Source: a virus. From it: 20,719 nt of DNA. Below are positions 1,278-19,157 of this stretch, piece by piece; positions within the stretch are counted from its first letter, which is position 1, and each line of letters begins with the position of its first letter. Below the pieces are notes generated by a model. That model had not been told where the DNA came from, did no database searches, and was given only the letters and a program-made list of their open reading frames with translations. The position numbers and the translations under genes are program-made. The stretch spans positions 1 to 20,719 of the IMG/VR virus record IMGVR_UViG_3300029953_000173; one strand, 5' to 3'.

Positions 1278-2741
1278 CTAGAAGATGAACACGAAGTATG
1301 CAGGAGCGGACGAGGGTAGCTGTGGCCCGTCGGAGGGTTTGGCGAACACGTAAACAACCGATGAGGCACCAAATTGTCCACCGTCCGACCCTACGGCGGG
1401 GTCGGTGAAAACCACCTGACTGAACCTGTTGCCCGCCGCGCCCACCGGCCACGAGATGGATGAATAAGCGCCGACGGTGCCGCCGATTAGATCGGTGAAA
1501 CCTGCTGTCCCGGCGCTAAGGCTATGGGCGTCTAAGAAGCCAGTGCAAACTGCCCACTGGGGATCGCCAGATGATGCGGCTGAGTCTGAGCCACTCAACA
1601 CTGAGCCAGTGGGCGGGGTGTACTTGATGTTGTTCCGGGCGCCGTAAAACGGATCGAGCACGAAGCCGAACTGCTCAACACCGTCCGCGTCTTGGACAGA
1701 GGCACGGCCCTCGGCATTGCCGGTTGTGGCGACCAGCACTTCAACGCGCGAGTATGCGCCGCCGGAAAGAACGAGTGGAAGCGCCGCTGGAAATCCATTC
1801 CACGTCTGGTTAGCGAGCACGCCAACGAGCACGGACCCATCCGTGGGGAGCGTCATAGCGGCGCCGTATCGTGGCCCGGTCATGTTGGCTGGGTTGGCGC
1901 CGCTCTTGAAGACGAGCGTTTCGATACTCCCCGCCACACCGGACGTTCCGCCGTAAGCGGTTCCAGATGTTCCCGTGGTAACACCTGTGGCCAGCGTCCA
2001 GGTGGAGCCGTTATCGGCGCTCCAGTATATCGAGGTCTCGCCCTGGGGGTTAACCCACGCGAACGGAACAGGGCTGGCGGGAGCTACGGGCTGGATAACA
2101 GCCTCGAAAGTCCCTGGTGGGTTCCCGAAACCTGCTGGGAGGGGCCAAGGCGGTGGCTCCTGCCCCGCGTTCATGTGAACGACGGCATCCCCGGAATAAA
2201 CCTGAGCGAAGATGGCGTAGGGGCCGGTAGAGCCTAGCGGGAACCCGCCGACGCCCGCGAGCACCTGAGCCTCAGTCAGCCCAGTCCCGGCCAGTCCGTA
2301 GAACGAACCATCCGTGCCTGCGTTAGTCACCCAGAAGCATTGATTAACGGGGTCCACCAGAAGCATGGCGGTTGTCCAGACACCGGGAAGGGTCGGGCCT
2401 GCGACGAGGCTGCCGGTGTTGTAAAAGACCTGTCCACCGGCCTGAACGCAGGCTGCTCCGGGGTTTTGGTAGGCTGAGCCGAGGTTATTCCCGACCAGGG
2501 ACAGGGGAACAATACCCATGTTGGCTGCGAAGGAACTGCCGGAATATCCGGTCGTAGCCGTGAAAGTTACTGCAAACTTTTCAGTGGCGTTGGTCAGGCA
2601 GTAGGCGGTGATGTTGCCACCGTCAGACTGAAACGCGAAGCCATCCGAGGATATGTTGCAGGTGTTGTAAGAAGCCGCAGCGACGTGCGCGCCCCCTCCA
2701 CTATCGTAGAGAAGCCCGGAGAACCGGGCAGGAGCGGCCAT
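1278..2741 (-). CDS. putative receptor-binding / tail fibre tip protein with SPRY-like domain and Asp-box
   Basis: A 487-aa protein rich in Gly, Ala, Ser and Thr with predicted beta structure and only four lysines. Residues about 25-205 read like the SPRY/concanavalin-like modules of phage tail proteins: a Cys/Tyr-containing entry strand, YNTGSLV, VWTTAMLLVD, FWVTNAGTDG, YAIFAQVYSGDAVVHMNAG, and a Pro-rich exit ending LPAGFGNPPG. Residues 241-248 (SADNGSTW) fit the Asp-box/BNR motif S-x-D-x-G-x-T-W exactly. The C-terminal part (about 290-487) is Gly/Ser-rich beta with no family I recognise. The start ATG overlaps the upstream rod gene stop as TAATG. Position after the rod protein and just before the lysis genes suits a host-recognition protein. 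The fold assignment is by pattern only; carbohydrate binding is inference. Confidence 0.65.
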   Translation of the reverse strand: MAAPARFSGLLYDSGGGAHVAAASYNTCNISSDGFAFQSDGGNITAYCLTNATEKFAVTFTATTGYSGSSFAANMGIVPLSLVGNNLGSAYQNPGAACVQAGGQVFYNTGSLVAGPTLPGVWTTAMLLVDPVNQCFWVTNAGTDGSFYGLAGTGLTEAQVLAGVGGFPLGSTGPYAIFAQVYSGDAVVHMNAGQEPPPWPLPAGFGNPPGTFEAVIQPVAPASPVPFAWVNPQGETSIYWSADNGSTWTLATGVTTGTSGTAYGGTSGVAGSIETLVFKSGANPANMTGPRYGAAMTLPTDGSVLVGVLANQTWNGFPAALPLVLSGGAYSRVEVLVATTGNAEGRASVQDADGVEQFGFVLDPFYGARNNIKYTPPTGSVLSGSDSAASSGDPQWAVCTGFLDAHSLSAGTAGFTDLIGGTVGAYSSISWPVGAAGNRFSQVVFTDPAVGSDGGQFGASSVVYVFAKPSDGPQLPSSAPAYFVFIF

Positions 2742-3793
2742 TATGCGGTCCTCACGATAGCTGCAGTGATCGCTAGGCCAGCCAAGGTAGCGTCCGCCGT
2801 CGCCGGGAGGCCCAGCAGAAGCTGGTCACCCGCAGGACCGGAGGTCTGCGTCACAGTGGCCGTCACGACCGTTCCGGTGACGGAAAGCGAGCCGATTGAG
2901 GTAGTAACGCCCGCGCTTCGGACGGATAGCGGGAACACCGTCGGAGCCGTCGCAGCTGCCTCAACGTCGAACTGCGAGAACGTAAGGTTCGTGGGTATTT
3001 GATAGGCCACCGGGAAGGCGGGGAACGCGATGTGCGCGACGGCCGGTGCGGTGGACGTAGCGGCGGTGACGGCCGGCGGGAACCCTGGGAAGGTGATCCC
3101 TAAGAAAAGCGGAGGCAGACACGTCAGTGTGGCCCCGCTGCCCGTGGATAGCATGGACAGGGCGCCACTAATCGCTGTGGCAACTAATCCACCGCCGGTA
3201 TTCGTGCCGAGAATGGCCGCGCCGTCGGGCAGGGAGAAGCCGATCGAGGTTGCCTCAGCAGCCGCAGCAGCAGCCTCCGCAGCCGCAGCCGAAGCCGCCG
3301 CCAGGGTGGCGCTAGACGCAGCTGCAGTAGCCGCAGAGACCACCGCAGTGACGCTGCCGGCCACGCTGGTGGCACTCTCCGCCGCCGCAGTGGCACTTGT
3401 CGCGCACGCCGTCTGGCTGTTGCTGGCGGCCGTCGCAGCCGTCGCAGCCGTGGCCGCTGATACCATCGCGGAGGTGGCCGAAGCCGCAGCCGCCGCAGTG
3501 GACGCAGAGAGCGTTGAGGTGGCCGAAGCGACAGCCGCAGCAAGCGTTGAGGTGGCCGCTGTAGTGGCCGTGGTGATCGACCCTAAGGCACTCGCGCCGG
3601 CAGCAACAACGGCCGTCAGCGACCCGCTAATCGAAGCCACGTCGGCGTTGCAGGTGACCACGTCGGCTTGGCAAGCAGCCTCAGCAGCAAGAACTGTGGC
3701 CAGAAGGTTCTGGAGATCAACGCCTGCGCTTCCGCTAGCCTCGGAAGAAAAGAGGCCCGAGTTGAACTCGATGATTTGTAGTGTCCCGCTCAT
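2741..3793 (-). CDS. Ala/Ser/Thr-rich fibre shaft-like virion protein
   Basis: A 350-aa protein. Residues 1-30 could be an attachment segment. Residues about 51-182 are almost only Ala, Ser, Thr and Val in an irregular 7/11-residue pattern, as expected for a long trimeric helical rod. Residues about 185-350 are hydrophobic and beta-like, with Pro/Phe-rich parts and two final Val/Thr-rich strands. The protein has no lysine, two arginines and one histidine. I propose a tail or head fibre shaft whose tip is encoded by the TAATG-coupled downstream gene. A GGAGAG Shine-Dalgarno lies just upstream of the ATG and one base separates it from the adaptor stop. Low complexity makes homology calls unreliable; a virion role rests on composition and position. 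Confidence 0.6.
   Translation of the reverse strand: MSGTLQIIEFNSGLFSSEASGSAGVDLQNLLATVLAAEAACQADVVTCNADVASISGSLTAVVAAGASALGSITTATTAATSTLAAAVASATSTLSASTAAAAASATSAMVSAATAATAATAASNSQTACATSATAAAESATSVAGSVTAVVSAATAAASSATLAAASAAAAEAAAAAAEATSIGFSLPDGAAILGTNTGGGLVATAISGALSMLSTGSGATLTCLPPLFLGITFPGFPPAVTAATSTAPAVAHIAFPAFPVAYQIPTNLTFSQFDVEAAATAPTVFPLSVRSAGVTTSIGSLSVTGTVVTATVTQTSGPAGDQLLLGLPATADATLAGLAITAAIVRTA
3248..3643 (-). repeat. degenerate Ala/Ser/Thr codon repeat encoding the rod
   Basis: GCN/TCN/ACN-rich tract inside the rod gene (residues 51-182). A near-exact unit AGCGTTGAGGTGGCCG on the plus strand occurs at 3510-3525 and 3543-3558, a 33-base (11-residue) period, and a related GAGGTGGCCGAAG copy sits near 3474. 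The mix of 11- and 14-residue spacing fits hendecad/heptad coiled-coil geometry and possible growth by slippage. Confidence 0.7.
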
Positions 3794-11588: not shown

Positions 11589-12194
11589 TTACATTCCCGG
11601 TGGGCGTTGCCCTGGAGCGCCCCCCATCGGAGGCTGCCCCATCGGCGGACGCGGAGGTTGAGCCATCATTGGAGCGCCTGGAGGTGCCCCACCCATCGGC
11701 GGGCCGCCCGGCATCGGAGGCGGAGGACCACCTGGGCCACCCGGCATCGGGGGCTTGGGCTGCATCTTCCGGCCGATCGCGGCCTTGGTGATGGTGTGCA
11801 TAGTTTGGATGCCGGCTTGACCTTGGAGGGGGCCGTTGTGGGCGATGAGCGCCTGCCCCTGCTGCGGGGTGAAGGTCCCAGCCTGCGTCAAGCCGGCGAT
11901 GGTTGAGTGGATGTCGTCGGTGTTCACCGGGACGCCCGCGTGGGCCGCTGCCATGGCGATATGAGATTTGAAGCTCATGTTCGGGTTGGGCGGCATCCCC
12001 TGAACGCCAGGAGGACCACCCACCGCGCCCCCGGTGGCAGCCGGCGGTGCTGAGGGCGAGCCCGCCATGCGGCTCATTACGCGGGCGGCAGATGCCTTGA
12101 CGGCCCCTTTATGCGCAGCCTGAGAGGCAGCCGAAGAGGCCACGCCCTGGCCCTGGCCGGGGGTATGGTTCGTGGAGTCTTTCCACATATGCAT
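11589..12194 (-). CDS. unknown protein with Pro/Gly/Met-rich C-terminal tail
   Basis: A 201-aa protein between the largest ejection protein and the small terminase. It has an Ala/Ser/Gln-rich N-terminus, a Pro/Gly linker, a small helical segment (about 73-140), and a tail from about residue 145 to the end made almost entirely of Pro, Gly, Met, Ala and Gln with repeated PPMGGAP-like units (coding 11592-11762). Two starts compete: ATG at 12194, coupled as TAATG, and ATG at 12188, which is nine bases from the AAAGG at 12198-12202 and so better spaced. The product is 201 or 199 aa. No family is recognised; a minor virion or ejection-associated role is inferred from context only. Confidence 0.6.
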   Translation of the reverse strand: MHMWKDSTNHTPGQGQGVASSAASQAAHKGAVKASAARVMSRMAGSPSAPPAATGGAVGGPPGVQGMPPNPNMSFKSHIAMAAAHAGVPVNTDDIHSTIAGLTQAGTFTPQQGQALIAHNGPLQGQAGIQTMHTITKAAIGRKMQPKPPMPGGPGGPPPPMPGGPPMGGAPPGAPMMAQPPRPPMGQPPMGGAPGQRPPGM

Positions 12195-15100
12195 TAACCT
12201 TTCGGGTGTCTCGGGCCGTGCGACATCATGCGGGCAGTGAAGAACTTCGCTGCCTTGGCGCGATGGTGGGCATCGGCAATCGTGTTGAGGTGGGTATCAC
12301 GCGCTGCGGCCTTCGCTGCGACGTTCGCGGCGGGGTCTGAGGCGTGCGTGTTCAGGACGTCCTGAAGGCCGTTCGCGGTGGCCGTCTTGACGTCGGGAGG
12401 GAGATCGGAGGCGTTCACCCGGTCGATTTGCTTCATGGTGGTCGCTCGGGCGTTTTCGATGGCTCCCTGATATGCCAGGGGATTCGCCACGGGGCCGTTG
12501 TTGCCTTCAGGCGTGTTGCCGGATGGAGCTTTCGAGTTAAGTTTGGCTTGGATCAGTTTCGCGGCTGCCGGGTCGATGCCGCCACCAGCTTCACCGTGAG
12601 CGATGAGCGCCGTGGCTGCGTCGGGGAAGGCTGCGCGGATGGCCGCGTGGACCGCGCCGCGCGTGTGCGCCGGGTTACCGTTGGCGAGGTAGCCTTCCAA
12701 CTTGTTCGCGGTCATCGCCGGGGTATCGAGGCCCGGAGCGGAGGACGCCTGGGGGATACCGACAGAAGCGGCCACGGGATCGTTCAGGACGTTCGCTGGG
12801 GCCGGTGTAGCGGTTGGCGCGGGGGGTTGGGCCGGCGCGGGCTGCGGGGCCCTCAGCGGGTTGTTATTCCGATCCAGCGGAGTGTTGACCGGGACGAGAT
12901 TGGGCCGAACACCCGTGATAGGGTCGGCCTGCCCGTCGGATGCCTGCGCCATGATGGATCGCGCGCCCTTCACGGCGTTGTTGAGGGTGGCATCCACGGC
13001 CGTATCGGAGACCAGCGGGTTGGCGGTGGGCGTCGTGGTGCCGGCCGTCAGCTTCGTTTGGTTCGAGAGAGCCGCCCTGTCCACGAGGTTCTGCGCCAGA
13101 ACAGTGGGGTTCGCATTACGCGCACCCTCAGCGTTCTTCAGCTGTTGGCGGGTGCGTGCAATTTGGAGAACCTTAGCCTGCTGAGCCTGCGCCTGCCCAT
13201 CGAGGTCTGCGGAAGCGTCTGGAAGACCTGAGGGCTGGAGCGTCGGGGTTTTCGACAGCGGATCGCCGCCGGAACCGGGGAGCGCCATTCCTGCGAGGTA
13301 TTCAGCCGCCCTCTGTTGCGCGCCGGCCGCCGTAAGGTCTTGCGAGGCCCACGGATCGCCAGTAGGAACCTTTGCAGGCTTCGGCGTGTTGGCTGCCCAG
13401 GCGGCGTCGATCTGCCCCTGCACATTCGGAGGTGTGGGCTCAGCCGGGGCGGCTGCCTGCGTAGCAATTCGCGCGGCCTGCGCTCCCGCGTTATGCACGG
13501 CAGCGTCAGTAGCGGTGTCGGACACAGCGGGGTTCGGGACGGGAGCGCCGAGAGACGCCGTCAACTTCGCTTGGTTCGATAGAGCCGCCTTATTCAGAGA
13601 CGTCTGCGCGAGCCAATCCGGGTCAACCTTTCGGTTGGCTATCCGGTTTGCGAAGGCGGCACGCGAGGCTGCAATCCTCTGCACGTTGGCTTGGAAGTCG
13701 GCGGACTGGTTGTCGAGGTCTGGAGATTCCCCAGGCTGCGGGAAATAGTCAGTCCCCTTCTTTCCACCTACCTCCCGATCCAACTGGTCGGCTAGAGGAT
13801 CGCTTCCGGCACCAACAGGAGGGACGCCCGCGTAGAACTTCTGCTTTGCGAGGTCCGCCTTAGCTTGGTCCGAGGCCGACCACGGGTCTCCGTTGGGGGC
13901 CCTGTAAGAGCCTCCGGTCGCTTTGTTCCAGGCCGCATCAATATCCGGAGAGGCCGGCGGGGGCGTGTCCTTAATCGCCGGGCCCGGAGCGTAGGCGGCC
14001 CGAATGTTTGAATTAATCTGCGTGGGGTCCTGAACGGGAGCAGAACCAACCATCAGCCGGGCTTTATTCGCCTGATAGGTGAGCGCCGGCTGCGAGGTTC
14101 CGAAGACGTTGTCCAGCGCGCCGCCGACTGCGGAGCCGAGACCGCCAACCTGACGGTGCCCGATTCCGATCGCGGCGAGTTCCGCCATGTTGCCGTGCAT
14201 CGCAGCGTGAGCTGCAGCGAGGCCGGTTGCGACGGTTCCGCCGACGTTGGCGAAGAACCCAGCGCCCTTCTTCTGGATCGACTGCGTTGAGAGGACGTCG
14301 AGAGTTTGTGCGTTGTGGACGAGCCCATCGACGATGTCGTCAGGCAGGCCGATAGAGCGAATGTTCTGGAGCAAGCCGTCGGTGATCGTGTTGTTATGGG
14401 TAGCGGCGGGGCCTGAGAATATCCAGCTGAGCTGGCGGGCCTGCGCCGCGTCGATCGCGCCGTTCTGCTTCAGGCTCGCAACGGTGGCGAGAGTGTCCTT
14501 CGTCAGGGTCTGCTTGGCGGCGTTGGCGGCGGCGAACGGAGATGTATCACCCTTCACCGCAGCTGCGCCGGCCTGGGCCTGCTTCATTGCGTTGTCGGCG
14601 GCGACGATCGCCTGGGCGTGTGCGTCGTTTACGGGGTCGGCCGCCTGAGAGGTCATATAGCTGTCCGCGCCGGCTTTAATACCGACCGCAGCTAATTCAG
14701 GGATGAGCGAGGCCGCGCGCGCCGCACCCGCTTGGATGCCGGCGTTGGCGACCGCGTATGGATCGAAGGCTGGGCCGTTTTTTGTTCCGGCTGAGGTGGC
14801 GAGCTGGTTCGCCGCATCGGTTGCAGCGCCAGCGCCCGCGTCCAGAGCGGCGCCCACAAAGGGACGCGCCAGGGTGGGGGCCGCTTCGAGAAGAGCGCGG
14901 CCGGGGCCGATCTTTCCCAAACCGACCGCAGCCAGCCCAGCGTCAGCCGCCGTGGCCAGACCACCACGCACGAAGTCTTCCGTGCTGGGAGCTGCATCGC
15001 CGTTGTTCTGCGCGGCGGCTTTGACATTGTTCCCGAGGTTCAGCGCGGCGGCGGTGAGGCCGACAGCGCCAGCGGTAGCGGCACCCTCGGGAGCCAGCGC

Positions 15101-15538
15101 GCCGGCACCGAGCATCGCTGCGGTGGGAGCGAGGCCCTCTGTGGCAGCGCGGGGGAGATCGTGAAAGAACTGGCCGTAGTTTCCCTGTTTTAGGGCGCCA
15201 GCTTCGTCGGTGGGGACGTATCCTTTCGGGGCTGCTGTAGCTCCCTCAAGGGTTTTCCCAAAGGAGGCCACCGAAGGGAGCCCTACGGCTGTCCCCACGG
15301 TGTCGAGCGTGTTTCCGAGGCCTGTCGCGGCGTTGTGCAGGCCATATCCGGCGGCGCCCGTGAAGGACGTGTCGGAGGGTGGCGTAGCAGCAGGAGCTGG
15401 CGAGGAAGCGTTCGTAGCCTGCATTGAGGCCTTCACTTCGTCAACCTGCGCCTGCTGATCGTCTGGTGACATATTCTCCAGGCCGTCGATGTTCACGTTG
15501 GCGATATGATCGCCCATGTCGATGGCAACGGTGGCCAT
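12194..15538 (-). CDS. large internal virion (DNA ejection) protein with duplicated module
   Basis: An 1114-aa Ala/Gly/Asn/Pro-rich protein, the largest in the window. Residues about 131-300 are Ala/Gly-rich amphipathic and hydrophobic stretches (for example AAMLGAGALAP, AVGLTAAALNLG) like the membrane-active regions of podovirus ejection proteins. Residues 301-480 form a mostly helical domain. Residues 532-869 hold two diverged copies of a module of about 160 residues, preceded by a partial copy. The C-terminus (about 935-1114) is helical and ends in a basic HPKG. I infer it is packed in the head and ejected into the host envelope, as large internal proteins of podoviruses are. ATG 15538 has AAGGAAA upstream; that site overlaps the TAA of the preceding gene (TAAGGAAA). 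Confidence 0.75.
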   Translation of the reverse strand: MATVAIDMGDHIANVNIDGLENMSPDDQQAQVDEVKASMQATNASSPAPAATPPSDTSFTGAAGYGLHNAATGLGNTLDTVGTAVGLPSVASFGKTLEGATAAPKGYVPTDEAGALKQGNYGQFFHDLPRAATEGLAPTAAMLGAGALAPEGAATAGAVGLTAAALNLGNNVKAAAQNNGDAAPSTEDFVRGGLATAADAGLAAVGLGKIGPGRALLEAAPTLARPFVGAALDAGAGAATDAANQLATSAGTKNGPAFDPYAVANAGIQAGAARAASLIPELAAVGIKAGADSYMTSQAADPVNDAHAQAIVAADNAMKQAQAGAAAVKGDTSPFAAANAAKQTLTKDTLATVASLKQNGAIDAAQARQLSWIFSGPAATHNNTITDGLLQNIRSIGLPDDIVDGLVHNAQTLDVLSTQSIQKKGAGFFANVGGTVATGLAAAHAAMHGNMAELAAIGIGHRQVGGLGSAVGGALDNVFGTSQPALTYQANKARLMVGSAPVQDPTQINSNIRAAYAPGPAIKDTPPPASPDIDAAWNKATGGSYRAPNGDPWSASDQAKADLAKQKFYAGVPPVGAGSDPLADQLDREVGGKKGTDYFPQPGESPDLDNQSADFQANVQRIAASRAAFANRIANRKVDPDWLAQTSLNKAALSNQAKLTASLGAPVPNPAVSDTATDAAVHNAGAQAARIATQAAAPAEPTPPNVQGQIDAAWAANTPKPAKVPTGDPWASQDLTAAGAQQRAAEYLAGMALPGSGGDPLSKTPTLQPSGLPDASADLDGQAQAQQAKVLQIARTRQQLKNAEGARNANPTVLAQNLVDRAALSNQTKLTAGTTTPTANPLVSDTAVDATLNNAVKGARSIMAQASDGQADPITGVRPNLVPVNTPLDRNNNPLRAPQPAPAQPPAPTATPAPANVLNDPVAASVGIPQASSAPGLDTPAMTANKLEGYLANGNPAHTRGAVHAAIRAAFPDAATALIAHGEAGGGIDPAAAKLIQAKLNSKAPSGNTPEGNNGPVANPLAYQGAIENARATTMKQIDRVNASDLPPDVKTATANGLQDVLNTHASDPAANVAAKAAARDTHLNTIADAHHRAKAAKFFTARMMSHGPRHPKG
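12941..13414 (-). repeat. second copy of the internal protein module (residues 709-866)
   Basis: The order QIDAAW, GDPW, GGDPL, VLAQNL, RAALSNQTKLTA, NPLVSDTAVDA mirrors the first copy, about 177 residues downstream. DNA of the two copies has diverged, so it is an old duplication kept at protein level. Confidence 0.85.
13445..13945 (-). repeat. first copy of the internal protein module (residues 532-698)
   Basis: Landmarks in order are DIDAAW (532), GDPW (550), GSDPL (578), WLAQTSLNKAALSNQAKLTA (642-661), NPAVSDTATDA (669-679). A half copy (LTYQANKARL...VQDPTQINSNIRAA, residues 486-515) precedes it. Confidence 0.85.
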
Positions 15539-15547
15539 GGAGTTTCC

Positions 15548-17698
15548 TTACTGCTGCTGGGTGGGTGTGGTGCCGACTATTTGGAACTTCGTCCCACTCT
15601 TCGTTACGTTCCACTTACCGGACTGGTCTTTGGAAACGGTAGGCCCTGAGCCGATCTGATCAACGTAGGGTGCGTCCTGTTTGGCTTTCCAGGCGTCGAA
15701 AGCGCCGGGTGATGTCCGTAAGGCGTTCTGCTGTTCCACTGGGGTTCCGCGCCACGCTTTGTAGACGTCGAGCTGGTGCTGAGCGGCCTGCTGCGCGGGC
15801 GCAACGAGAGCGCCGATCGCCTTCGGGTCGGTGTCGATGCTCGCAAGCTGGCCCTTGAAGAAGTCGAACTCCTTCTGGTTTCGGACAGCAACGCCCTTCG
15901 CGTTGGCGAAGCCGCCGCTGGTTACCTGCTTGCCCCACGCGTCCGCGATTTGGGCGCTGGATGCGTCGGCCGGGCCGAGACCGAGTTCGGTGGCCATATA
16001 CCTCTTGAACTGCTGCGCAAGTTGGGGGCCGGCGGCTGCCTGCGGGTCTGAGGCGACCTTCTGGAAGTTGGCGATGGTCTGCAACTTCTCGGCGGCAGGG
16101 ACACCTGCGTGGACGATGTTGTCGATGGCGTCTCCAGAGTCCTTTACGGTATCCGCCGCGAGGGTTTGGTTTCCCTTCGTGGTTCCGCTGATCTGCCCCT
16201 GAACGACCGCAGAACGATTGGCGGCGTTGGAAGTCTGCGCCGTCTGTCCCTGCATTGGACGGTAGGAAGTCTGTCCCGAGGTGGGGTCGATGAACTCCTG
16301 CAGGTCGGGACCGCCGTTCGTTCCCATCGTGATCTTGCCGGTCGGCTTCGGCTGCATCTTCATCCCGAGCACCAGATTCTGGTTCTGCATCTGGGCGTTC
16401 GCGCGCGCCTGCGCGATAACGTCCGTCTGATACTTCAGGTTGTTCGATCGGTCCTGGGCTTTAAGGTTCGACAGGTTCGTCATCCCCTGTCCAAGGCCTT
16501 GTCCGAGGGTTCGCGCCCCTGCCAGACCTGCACCCATCGCCAGCAGCCGGTCGCTGAGCGTTGAGCGATACATGGACGGATCGAGCGTCGGAATACCGAT
16601 CGCCGCCATCTGCGGGTCCTGCGGAGGAATGTTTCCGCCGCGATCTTCCGGCATGGAGTTGGCGTTCGGGCCGCCGGGAAGGTTGCCGTTCCCAGGGAGA
16701 GGAATGGCGGGTGGTATGGCGCCGCTGGTGGGCGAACCAGGAGAGCCCGCGCCGGGTTGTCCGTAGCGTTGGAGCCCCGTGGCCACACCAGATGCGTAGA
16801 CTGACGGATCGAGGGTAGAGTTTCGGTTTTCCTGGCGCCCGATGCCCTGGACAACGCTTTGCAGCAACTGAGGCTGTTTGAGCTGGTCTAGCGACAGTGG
16901 GGTGTTCGGATCGACGCCGACAAAGGTTCCGAGGTTCTTACCGTAGGCTACGGGGTCGTTTTTTCCGTCGCCCTTTGGCGCCCACACGGCGGCGAGCTGG
17001 TTCAGGCTGATCTGTCCGCCATTTTCGCGGGCCTTTGAGAGGACGTTCTGAGCCGCCGCAGATACACCATTCTCAGGCGTGTCGAAGCCGGCATAGCCTC
17101 CGCTAGAGCCTACCTTACCAACCCACGGAACGCCGTTGTCGCGGACATTCCCGACGTTGTTCTTAACGGAATCTATCGTGGCGGGGGCGTCGGATGGGGC
17201 GGTCGGGGCGGATGGAGCGGGAGAGGCGGATGAGGGGCCGTTTGGACCAACGGGGCCGGGGCCCATCCCTTGGAGAGCTGCTGGCGGGATCGGTGTGCTG
17301 GGAGCATCCGTCGCGGCCGGAGCGTTCACCGGAGGAACATTCGCCATCACCGATCCGACGTTGGCCGGCGGTGCGTCTGGATCGGTGGCGGTCGAGAACT
17401 TCCCAGAGGTGAGAAGGTTCGTCGCGCCGTTCGCTATTGATGTGCCGAGCTTGCTCGCCTTGTCCCAATCGAGGCCGCCGTCGGAGTTTCCAAGGAGGCT
17501 GGGGTTATTGATCATGGCTGAGCTGATCGGCGTGATGGGTTCTGGGCCCGCCCCCGGCAGTCCCGCTGATGGGGAAGCTGGTGTGGAAACACCCAATGCG
17601 GGTGCCGGGGGAGGTGCCGTCGAGGCAGAATCGTCCGGTGCCAGCACGAAGCCGCTAGTGGGCGGATCATAGACCACCGAGGACATCGAGTCGGACAT
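15548..17698 (-). CDS. internal virion protein with virion lysozyme-like domain
   Basis: A 716-aa protein starting at ATG 17698. The frame stays open upstream to 18166, but that part is a shadow of the preceding gene. Residues 1-180 are Pro/Ala/Ser-rich and disordered. Residues about 184-312 resemble the phage structural peptidoglycan hydrolase family (RNNNPGN...FDTPEHG...RWAPP..ND...Y): here NVRDNGVPWVGKVG, GGYAGFDTPENGVSA, LAAVWAPKGDGKNDPVAYGK, VGVDPNTPLSL and a GRQEN helix. After it comes a Pro/Gly linker, a Gly/Gln-rich segment (about 385-445) and a helical C-terminus. The likely role is local cell-wall digestion during DNA entry. It sits among ejection proteins, 34 bases after the 474-aa gene. 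The opening motif is altered compared with the family, so enzymatic activity is unproven. Confidence 0.75.
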   Translation of the reverse strand: MSDSMSSVVYDPPTSGFVLAPDDSASTAPPPAPALGVSTPASPSAGLPGAGPEPITPISSAMINNPSLLGNSDGGLDWDKASKLGTSIANGATNLLTSGKFSTATDPDAPPANVGSVMANVPPVNAPAATDAPSTPIPPAALQGMGPGPVGPNGPSSASPAPSAPTAPSDAPATIDSVKNNVGNVRDNGVPWVGKVGSSGGYAGFDTPENGVSAAAQNVLSKARENGGQISLNQLAAVWAPKGDGKNDPVAYGKNLGTFVGVDPNTPLSLDQLKQPQLLQSVVQGIGRQENRNSTLDPSVYASGVATGLQRYGQPGAGSPGSPTSGAIPPAIPLPGNGNLPGGPNANSMPEDRGGNIPPQDPQMAAIGIPTLDPSMYRSTLSDRLLAMGAGLAGARTLGQGLGQGMTNLSNLKAQDRSNNLKYQTDVIAQARANAQMQNQNLVLGMKMQPKPTGKITMGTNGGPDLQEFIDPTSGQTSYRPMQGQTAQTSNAANRSAVVQGQISGTTKGNQTLAADTVKDSGDAIDNIVHAGVPAAEKLQTIANFQKVASDPQAAAGPQLAQQFKRYMATELGLGPADASSAQIADAWGKQVTSGGFANAKGVAVRNQKEFDFFKGQLASIDTDPKAIGALVAPAQQAAQHQLDVYKAWRGTPVEQQNALRTSPGAFDAWKAKQDAPYVDQIGSGPTVSKDQSGKWNVTKSGTKFQIVGTTPTQQQ

Positions 17699-17705
17699 GG
17701 AAGGT

Positions 17706-17711
17706 TCCTTT
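17706..17711 (-). promoter_or_regulatory. ribosome binding site fixing the start of the 716-aa gene
   Basis: AAAGGA on the minus strand, seven bases before ATG 17698. It decides against the much longer upstream frame, which overlaps the 474-aa gene. Confidence 0.75.
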
Positions 17712-17732
17712 GAGGTTTTCTCAGGAATACTT

Positions 17733-19157
17733 TCAGTATTGCTGAGAGGGAAAGGTAGAGTTAATCGGGGTGTATTGAGTGGCACTGTTCGTCGGGATTT
17801 GCTCCGACCAAGGGTTTTGGCCACCTCCTCCAAATAGGTTTGATAAGAGCCCTCCTCCGGAGGAGCCGGAGGGCCCGCCAGCGAACAGAGAAGCAGCGCC
17901 AAGAGCGCCACCCAATACCGTGGTGAACGGATTTGCCTGCTGGGTCTGCGTGGAGTTGGACTCGCCCGTAGTGTTACCACCCCAGTTACTCGCGCCCACA
18001 ACCCCGTAGTAATTGTCGAGGACGCCCTGCTGGTAGGTGTTCTGGCCCTGCCACTGATCATATTGATTGGTGAGCCCCTCCTGTGCTCCCTGCTGCTGGA
18101 GACCACCTGCGGCAGCGCCGAGTTGGTAGTTCCCCTCAGCGAGGTTCTGGCCCTCGGAGGCCGCATTGAGACCCAGCTCAGTGCCTTGCGCGAGCTGCGC
18201 GTTACCGGCGAGCTGCGTCTGCGCGTTTAGGCCTTCATAGCCCAGGGTGGAACCCAACGCGGACGTTGCAGCGTTGTTCTGCATGTTCTGCGTGGCGAGG
18301 TTGTTCGCCTGCTGGTTCTCTGCGATCCCGGCGTTCTCGCTGATGCCATTCTCGGCACCGGAAAGCTGCGCGGAAAGACCGACGTTGCGCTCGTTCGCGG
18401 CCGTCGAGAGGCCGGTGTTGAACGCGTTGTTGTCGATGCTACTGTCAGCGTTGCCGACGGCGAGGGCAGCGTTATACGTGTCCGCCCCTTGGATTGCGCC
18501 GGCACGAGAGCTGTTCTCACCGCCGTTGATCGAGGCAGCTTGGTTCAGTCCCGGAAGCGTCGAGGTAGTCAGCGTGTGGTCGATCGCGCCGTTCGCCTGC
18601 TGCAAAGCCTGCTGAATGGGCGAGGAGTTCATATACTGGCCCGCGTCGGTAGCGAGCTGCTGCGTTGGGTCCGTCGCCGCTTCGTTAATGGCGTTGTTCA
18701 ACTGCGTGTTATAGCCGGCGATGTTATTCGCCCCCGCAATCGCGGCGCCATTCAACGCGGTGGTGAGACCCCCACTGATGGCGGTCCCCTGGCCGGCGGC
18801 GGCGCCGTTCAATTCACCAATGTTCGCGGCGTTCGGGCCGGCGGTTCCCTGGGCGAGCTGAGCAGCGTTCTGGTCGTATTGGCTGGTGCCGTTCAGATAT
18901 GAGTTGGCGGTGTTGCCAACTGAATTGACTGCGGCGGCTCCTTGGCCCTGAGTGTATCCCAACGCGCTGGCTTCTGTTTCTTGCTGGCCTGCGTTCTGAC
19001 CGGCGACGTAGTTCCCCGTGTAGGGGCCGGAAGCCATCCGGTTGTCGAAGATGTCTTGTGCGTTGGTGAACGCGTTGGTGATCTGGCTGGCTTGCGGCGC
19101 CCACGGAGAAGTCTGCTGGGCCGTCTTACCGGAGGTAGTGGTTGTCGAATCGCCCAT
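17733..19157 (-). CDS. internal virion protein, Asn/Gln/Ala/Gly-rich, almost without basic residues
   Basis: A 474-aa protein. After an N-terminal TTTTSGKTAQQTSPWAPQ motif, common at the start of podovirus internal proteins, the rest is Asn/Gln/Ala/Gly-rich and mostly helical by pattern. A hydrophobic glycine-rich segment (about 409-446, TVLGGALGAASLFAGG and GGGLLSNLFGGGG) precedes a polar tail. I count one Lys, three Arg, one His and no Cys, against nearly 30 acidic residues. The composition, glycine-rich segment and place in a run of ejection-protein genes suggest a protein packed with the DNA and released into the host envelope. The start ATG lies 32 bases inside the GNAT-like gene, with GAGG ten bases upstream. 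Function is inferred. Confidence 0.7.
   Translation of the reverse strand: MGDSTTTTSGKTAQQTSPWAPQASQITNAFTNAQDIFDNRMASGPYTGNYVAGQNAGQQETEASALGYTQGQGAAAVNSVGNTANSYLNGTSQYDQNAAQLAQGTAGPNAANIGELNGAAAGQGTAISGGLTTALNGAAIAGANNIAGYNTQLNNAINEAATDPTQQLATDAGQYMNSSPIQQALQQANGAIDHTLTTSTLPGLNQAASINGGENSSRAGAIQGADTYNAALAVGNADSSIDNNAFNTGLSTAANERNVGLSAQLSGAENGISENAGIAENQQANNLATQNMQNNAATSALGSTLGYEGLNAQTQLAGNAQLAQGTELGLNAASEGQNLAEGNYQLGAAAGGLQQQGAQEGLTNQYDQWQGQNTYQQGVLDNYYGVVGASNWGGNTTGESNSTQTQQANPFTTVLGGALGAASLFAGGPSGSSGGGLLSNLFGGGGQNPWSEQIPTNSATQYTPINSTFPSQQY

Follow-up and report, generated by a model that had tools for sequence, protein, structure and literature searches.

A diverged tandem module of varying copy number in a probable ejection protein of an SU10-like phage

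To our knowledge, it is poorly understood how podophages span the envelope with their last ejection protein. The 20.7-kb virus record studied here (the window, meaning the whole stretch of 20,719 nucleotides) encodes a 1114-aa protein for which the original prediction proposed a diverged tandem module, preceded by a half copy and possibly variable in number between phages. Is this repeat real, how many copies do related phages have, and what could such a module do in a protein of this kind?

Judged by Pfam matches to SU10-type portal (PF23899, E 1e-160), major capsid (PF17236, E 1e-75) and adaptor (PF24175, E 1e-16) families, the phage is a member of the SU10-like portal/capsid group of podoviruses. 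A run of genes for 474-aa, ~716-aa, 1114-aa and 201-aa proteins leads to the terminase gene, which adjoins that of the portal (Table 1). The 474-aa protein has homologues in the same place in relatives. Residues ~180-310 of the 716-aa protein are 39-40% identical to the N-terminus of a Kayfunavirus gp16-type protein (E 2e-10) annotated as "peptidoglycan transglycosylase / internal virion protein D", and this gp16-N-like domain has no Pfam match. The open reading frame here could encode 872 aa (15548-18166, minus strand), overlapping the 474-aa gene, and the ATG at 17698 is the likelier start. The 201-aa gene begins right at the stop of the 1114-aa gene, and in relatives its start lies two codons further on, at the second ATG.

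The 1114-aa protein itself gave no credible match in Pfam, PHROG, PDB or phage-record searches, so its identity rests on position and neighbours: the gene lies within the ejection-gene run beside the terminase, as it does in relatives. The label "ejection protein" is thus backed by synteny and adjacent genes rather than by direct homology to a characterised ejection protein, and the product is probably the last and largest of the set. Of the genomes of known origin that carry related portals, the nearest are prophages of the acetic acid bacterium Asaia, which makes an alphaproteobacterial host plausible. Elsewhere in the window, a 350-aa protein (2741-3793, minus strand) has an N-terminal half that is long, Ala/Ser/Thr-rich, coil-like and of very low complexity.

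Table 1. Coordinates of the features discussed, with the basis of each assignment (L007 is the relative with the closest complete orthologue)
Feature	Coordinates	Strand	Basis
201-aa conserved protein, Pro/Gly-rich tail	11589..12194	-	80% identity to L007
1114-aa protein, probable last and largest ejection (internal virion) protein	12194..15538	-	Intact ORF, position, L007 orthologue
C-terminal region, residues 946-1114	12197..12703	-	Identity by region; model
Conserved peptide after copy B, residues 869-900	12839..12934	-	81% identity to L007
Module copy B, residues 701-868	12935..13438	-	Alignment to copy A and single L007 module
Module copy A, residues 524-700	13439..13969	-	Alignment to copy B and single L007 module
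Ala/Gly-rich hydrophobic region and core, residues 131-500	14039..15148	-	GRAVY; Asaia profile match
End of conserved core, residues 466-499	14042..14143	-	Alignment to relatives' core ends
N-terminal beta-beta-alpha motif, residues 1-44	15407..15538	-	80% identity to L007; pLDDT 61-72
Neighbouring ejection-type protein, ~716 aa, ATG at 17698	15548..17698	-	gp16-N-like match
474-aa protein, probable ejection protein	17733..19157	-	PHROG 4287 "DNA ejection protein", E 9e-7 (weak)

The tandem repeat in the 1114-aa protein is real. Copies A and B align over essentially their whole length and not at shared landmarks only, with a local score of 273 against a shuffle mean of 45 (sd 8, maximum 77, n=500), and an ungapped scan of the protein against itself gave z = 29.5 relative to shuffles that preserve local composition. 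The ordered landmarks proposed for the two copies are all in place: IDAAW (residues 533 and 710), GDPW (550 and 727), DPL (580 and 759), LAQ (643 and 814), ALSNQ (652 and 823) and VSDTA (672 and 843). The proposed period of about 177 residues describes the first third of the module, where landmarks are 177-179 residues apart, but not the later part, where the spacing drops to 171 because of indels; copy A carries an insert of ~8 residues (KKGTDYFP region), and further short indels separate the copies. As predicted, the DNA has diverged (48% nucleotide identity; pS 0.73, near saturation, and pN 0.44) and the longest DNA repeat is 56 nt at 77%; the repeat is kept at the protein level.

The half copy proposed at residues 486-515 (13994-14083) did not hold up. 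Its score against both A and B equals the shuffle mean, and a search restricted to the tandem register gave p = 0.25. The first part of this segment lies instead in residues 466-499, the terminal stretch of the conserved core, which aligns with the core ends of three relatives with scores of 79 in L007 (shuffle maximum 49), 55 in L103 (47) and 55 in L010 (48). Comparison with the module found no third copy downstream of B.

The number of modules does vary between phages: there are two in the window, one in L007, one in L103 and part of one in L010. The terminase of L007 is 83% identical to that of the window, and its 956-aa orthologue aligns so that window residues 1-501 and 698-1114 map to L007 residues 1-506 and 549-956. 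The single L007 module scores 296 against A (shuffle maximum 67) and 351 against B (shuffle maximum 78). In L103 (partial, 831 aa) there is one diverged module (118 against a shuffle maximum of 80), and in L010 (934 aa) the second half of one (112 against 77). A module profile searched against all fetched ORFs was significant only for L007 and for a further contig, L002, which matches most of copy B onwards at 100%; the evidence from L103 and L010, which comes from pairwise shuffles, is accordingly weaker. No further phage with the module turned up when the viral collection was scanned with alignments of the module, the whole protein and the 201-aa protein. The largest ejection-position proteins of L007, L103, L010 and the Asaia prophages (L041 and L072) all have a core homologous to that of the 1114-aa protein (E 6.7e-10 for the Asaia group in profile comparison), whereas no module was detected in the prophage L041.

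The two copies are most simply explained as a derived duplication, in the window lineage, of a module that was probably single in the ancestor. Identity between A and B is 41%, compared with 43% for A and L007 and 50% for B and L007. The L007 module resembles B at both ends and A in between; in the A-like stretch, SRAAFAARLANRKVDPDWLAQT, which is unlike B, 17 of the 19 compared codons encode the same residue as A. Polarised alignment columns are clustered in runs (p = 0.00065). Within the central stretch the outgroup L103 favours A over B by 7:1; outside it, B is favoured by 16:7 (Fisher p = 0.011, for a central region picked after seeing the alignment and an outgroup that aligns weakly). This split pattern is suggestive of one ancestral module, different parts of which would have been kept in different copies through partly complementary losses. 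In comparisons of the copies with each other and with L007, pS clearly exceeds pN.

Because A and B are no closer to each other than either is to L007, a duplication before the L007 split, followed by loss and recombination in L007, fits nearly as well. Under that history two copies would be ancestral and the L007 lineage would have lost one through inter-copy recombination, leaving a mixed module of just the B-like, A-like, B-like type that is seen. We regard this history as possible though doubtful, since L103 has one copy only and L010 part of one, the alternating pattern requires two crossovers or gene conversion, and polarisation by L103 makes A the ancestral version in the central stretch and B everywhere else, as differential loss predicts. 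A misjoined contig in the window or L007, both of which are metagenome contigs, is very improbable, given that copies with DNA merely 48% identical make a read-level false duplication very unlikely and that L002 independently supports most of copy B onwards.

Net charge of the module is about zero (-3 and 0 for the two copies) and 18% of residues are hydrophobic, values that speak against a general role in DNA binding or membrane insertion for the module as a whole; A, G, P, S, T, N and Q make up 62-66% of the stretch. AlphaFold run on the module with five sequences predicted, at low confidence, five helices and no strands (pLDDT 51, pTM 0.19), and the model of the whole protein reached pLDDT 35; both are too poor to support a claim of fold or disorder, of helix content or of flexibility. 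The original prediction named no known domain, and indeed we obtained only weak and inconsistent matches for the module in Pfam, PHROG and PDB; a single weak PDB match to FlgC (E 0.04) was not considered credible.

Residues 1-44 are the best-predicted N-terminal part of the whole-protein model (pLDDT 61-72), and helices are predicted near residues 1045-1106 with pLDDT of about 60-74. In the Ala/Gly-rich hydrophobic region and core, GRAVY is +0.37 for residues 131-300 and +0.11 for 301-480. Identity to L007 is 49% in the module and 45% on average in the whole protein; residues 1-44, 869-900 and 946-1002 are far more conserved than the module (73-81%), and within the C-terminal region a strong part (946-1002, 73%) is followed by a weak one (1003-1114, 30%). 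The 869-900 peptide, SDGxADPxTGVRPxLVPVNTPLDRNNNPL, is thus 81% kept in a protein otherwise 45% identical, and it is absent after copy A.

We also asked what occupies this position in other phages. The set comprised the largest protein upstream of the terminase in all fetched loci, giving 56 proteins after removal of near-duplicates, and 57 with that of the window. Strong tandem repeats (z of at least 7) occur in 7 of the 57, all centred at 64-74% of protein length, with periods of 171, 61, 33, 97, 33, 40 and 44 residues. The window module showed no homology to the other six repeats (five were compared directly, and L016 is an 84% homologue of L017). The positional clustering is significant under a uniform-position null with L016 dropped (p = 0.0002), and where homologues exist the repeats are flanked by conserved N- and C-terminal parts. 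Other large ORFs of the same loci, used as a control, have repeats in 18 of 192 cases, and overall rates do not differ (p = 0.62). Seventeen of these 18 lie at least 6.5 kb downstream of the terminase, in the expected tail-fibre region. With that region left aside, an exclusion made after seeing the data, repeats occur in 1 of 162 controls against the 7 of 57 ejection-position proteins (p = 0.0004). A literature search for repeats in ejection proteins gave nothing relevant, which does not prove that none have been described. The ejection-position proteins of L016 (6972-9476) and L017 (4479-6995) contain a 33-residue Pro-rich unit, with LSPVAMSMLKQRLK, several times over.

In the more distant relatives L011, L021 and L051, the protein encoded where the window has its 1114-aa gene opens with an SLT transglycosylase domain, and the L011 protein matches PHROG 342, "internal virion protein with endolysin domain". 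Profile comparison between the group of the 1114-aa protein and the SLT-bearing syntenic group was not significant. The protein at this position in L144 (2917-5958) starts, by eye, with a lambda-endolysin-like rather than an SLT sequence, which by the same inspection would be a third hydrolase arrangement, and also has a 61-residue repeat. Movement of hydrolases between adjacent ejection proteins has been described in a review (PMC8954989). The gp16-N-like match in the 716-aa protein, which Pfam does not see, may represent an undescribed gp16-N-type domain that moves between ejection proteins.

We hypothesize, with about an even chance of being right, that a segment of ~170 residues, single in the ancestral ejection protein, was duplicated in tandem in the window lineage and forms a loosely folded, mainly helical arm of variable length that makes some specific contacts. 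The arm would connect the hydrophobic core, the part likely to enter the envelope, with the C-terminal region. After passing as a thread through the narrow portal and tail channel, it would span or tether parts of a trans-periplasm channel built by the ejection proteins, its length being set by the number of module copies. Ejection, channel formation and threading are carried over from work on SU10 and T7 (PMC9509320, PMC8954989), not from this phage. Duplication would have partly freed the copies, so that A kept the ancestral stretch SRAAFANRIANRKVDPDWLAQT and B kept most of the rest. The GDPW, ALSNQxKLTA and VSDTAxDA parts are retained in both, so some of the contacts of the arm are probably sequence-specific; specific motifs together with conservation equal to that of the rest of the protein are more than a pure spacer needs.

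The main alternative, which we consider rather unlikely, is that the modules are specific binding domains, whose target would be DNA, neighbouring ejection proteins or the 201-aa protein, so that two copies provide two sites. Specific motifs kept in A, B and L007 and conservation matching that of the rest of the protein would suit such a domain, as would the basic stretch ANRIANRK, retained by A and lost in B, and the complementary losses, which resemble a split of ancestral functions. Near-zero charge and low hydrophobic content speak against it, there is no match to any domain family or solved structure, and specific binding would not lead one to expect that other phages have unrelated repeats at this position. 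The wider comparison points to a variable arm or spacer no less strongly than to a binding domain.

Distinctly improbable, in our judgement, is neutral drift, in which an Ala/Gln-rich low-complexity linker would expand and contract by chance and the repeat would have no function. The biased composition of the stretch and the independent origin of repeats in relatives fit this explanation; the excess of pS over pN, both between A and B and to L007, does not, nor does a module as conserved as the rest of the protein or the retention of the three motif-bearing parts in both copies.

The arm reading could extend to other members of the group. In SU10-like phages generally, the arm of the last ejection protein might be a length-adjustable element of the trans-envelope channel, built repeatedly and independently from unrelated repeats and with copy number tuned to the host envelope, a conjecture that we advance tentatively and think unlikely to hold. 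With a pair of close relatives that have one and two modules, and with unrelated repeats at this position in other phages, the idea of an arm or of a length effect could be tested by simply deleting a copy. The module itself constitutes an undescribed sequence family, small so far.

Among known systems, T7 gp16 with its homologues (internal virion protein D) is similar in being, like the 1114-aa protein, the last and largest product of a consecutive ejection-gene cassette and a large protein with hydrophobic stretches. The 1114-aa protein differs in having no sequence homology to gp16 detectable in PHROG or phage-record searches, and no N-terminal transglycosylase or hydrolase domain in Pfam searches, the gp16-N-like domain being found in its neighbour; we know of no tandem modules described in T7 gp16. 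The 1114-aa protein also differs from the SU10 (Kuravirus) ejection proteins gp20-gp24 in that it matches no record in the phage collection. The likeness to SU10 lies in the same portal, capsid and adaptor families and in a multi-protein ejection set here too; SU10 releases five ejection proteins, proposed to extend the nozzle, and its set includes a transglycosylase (PMC9509320).
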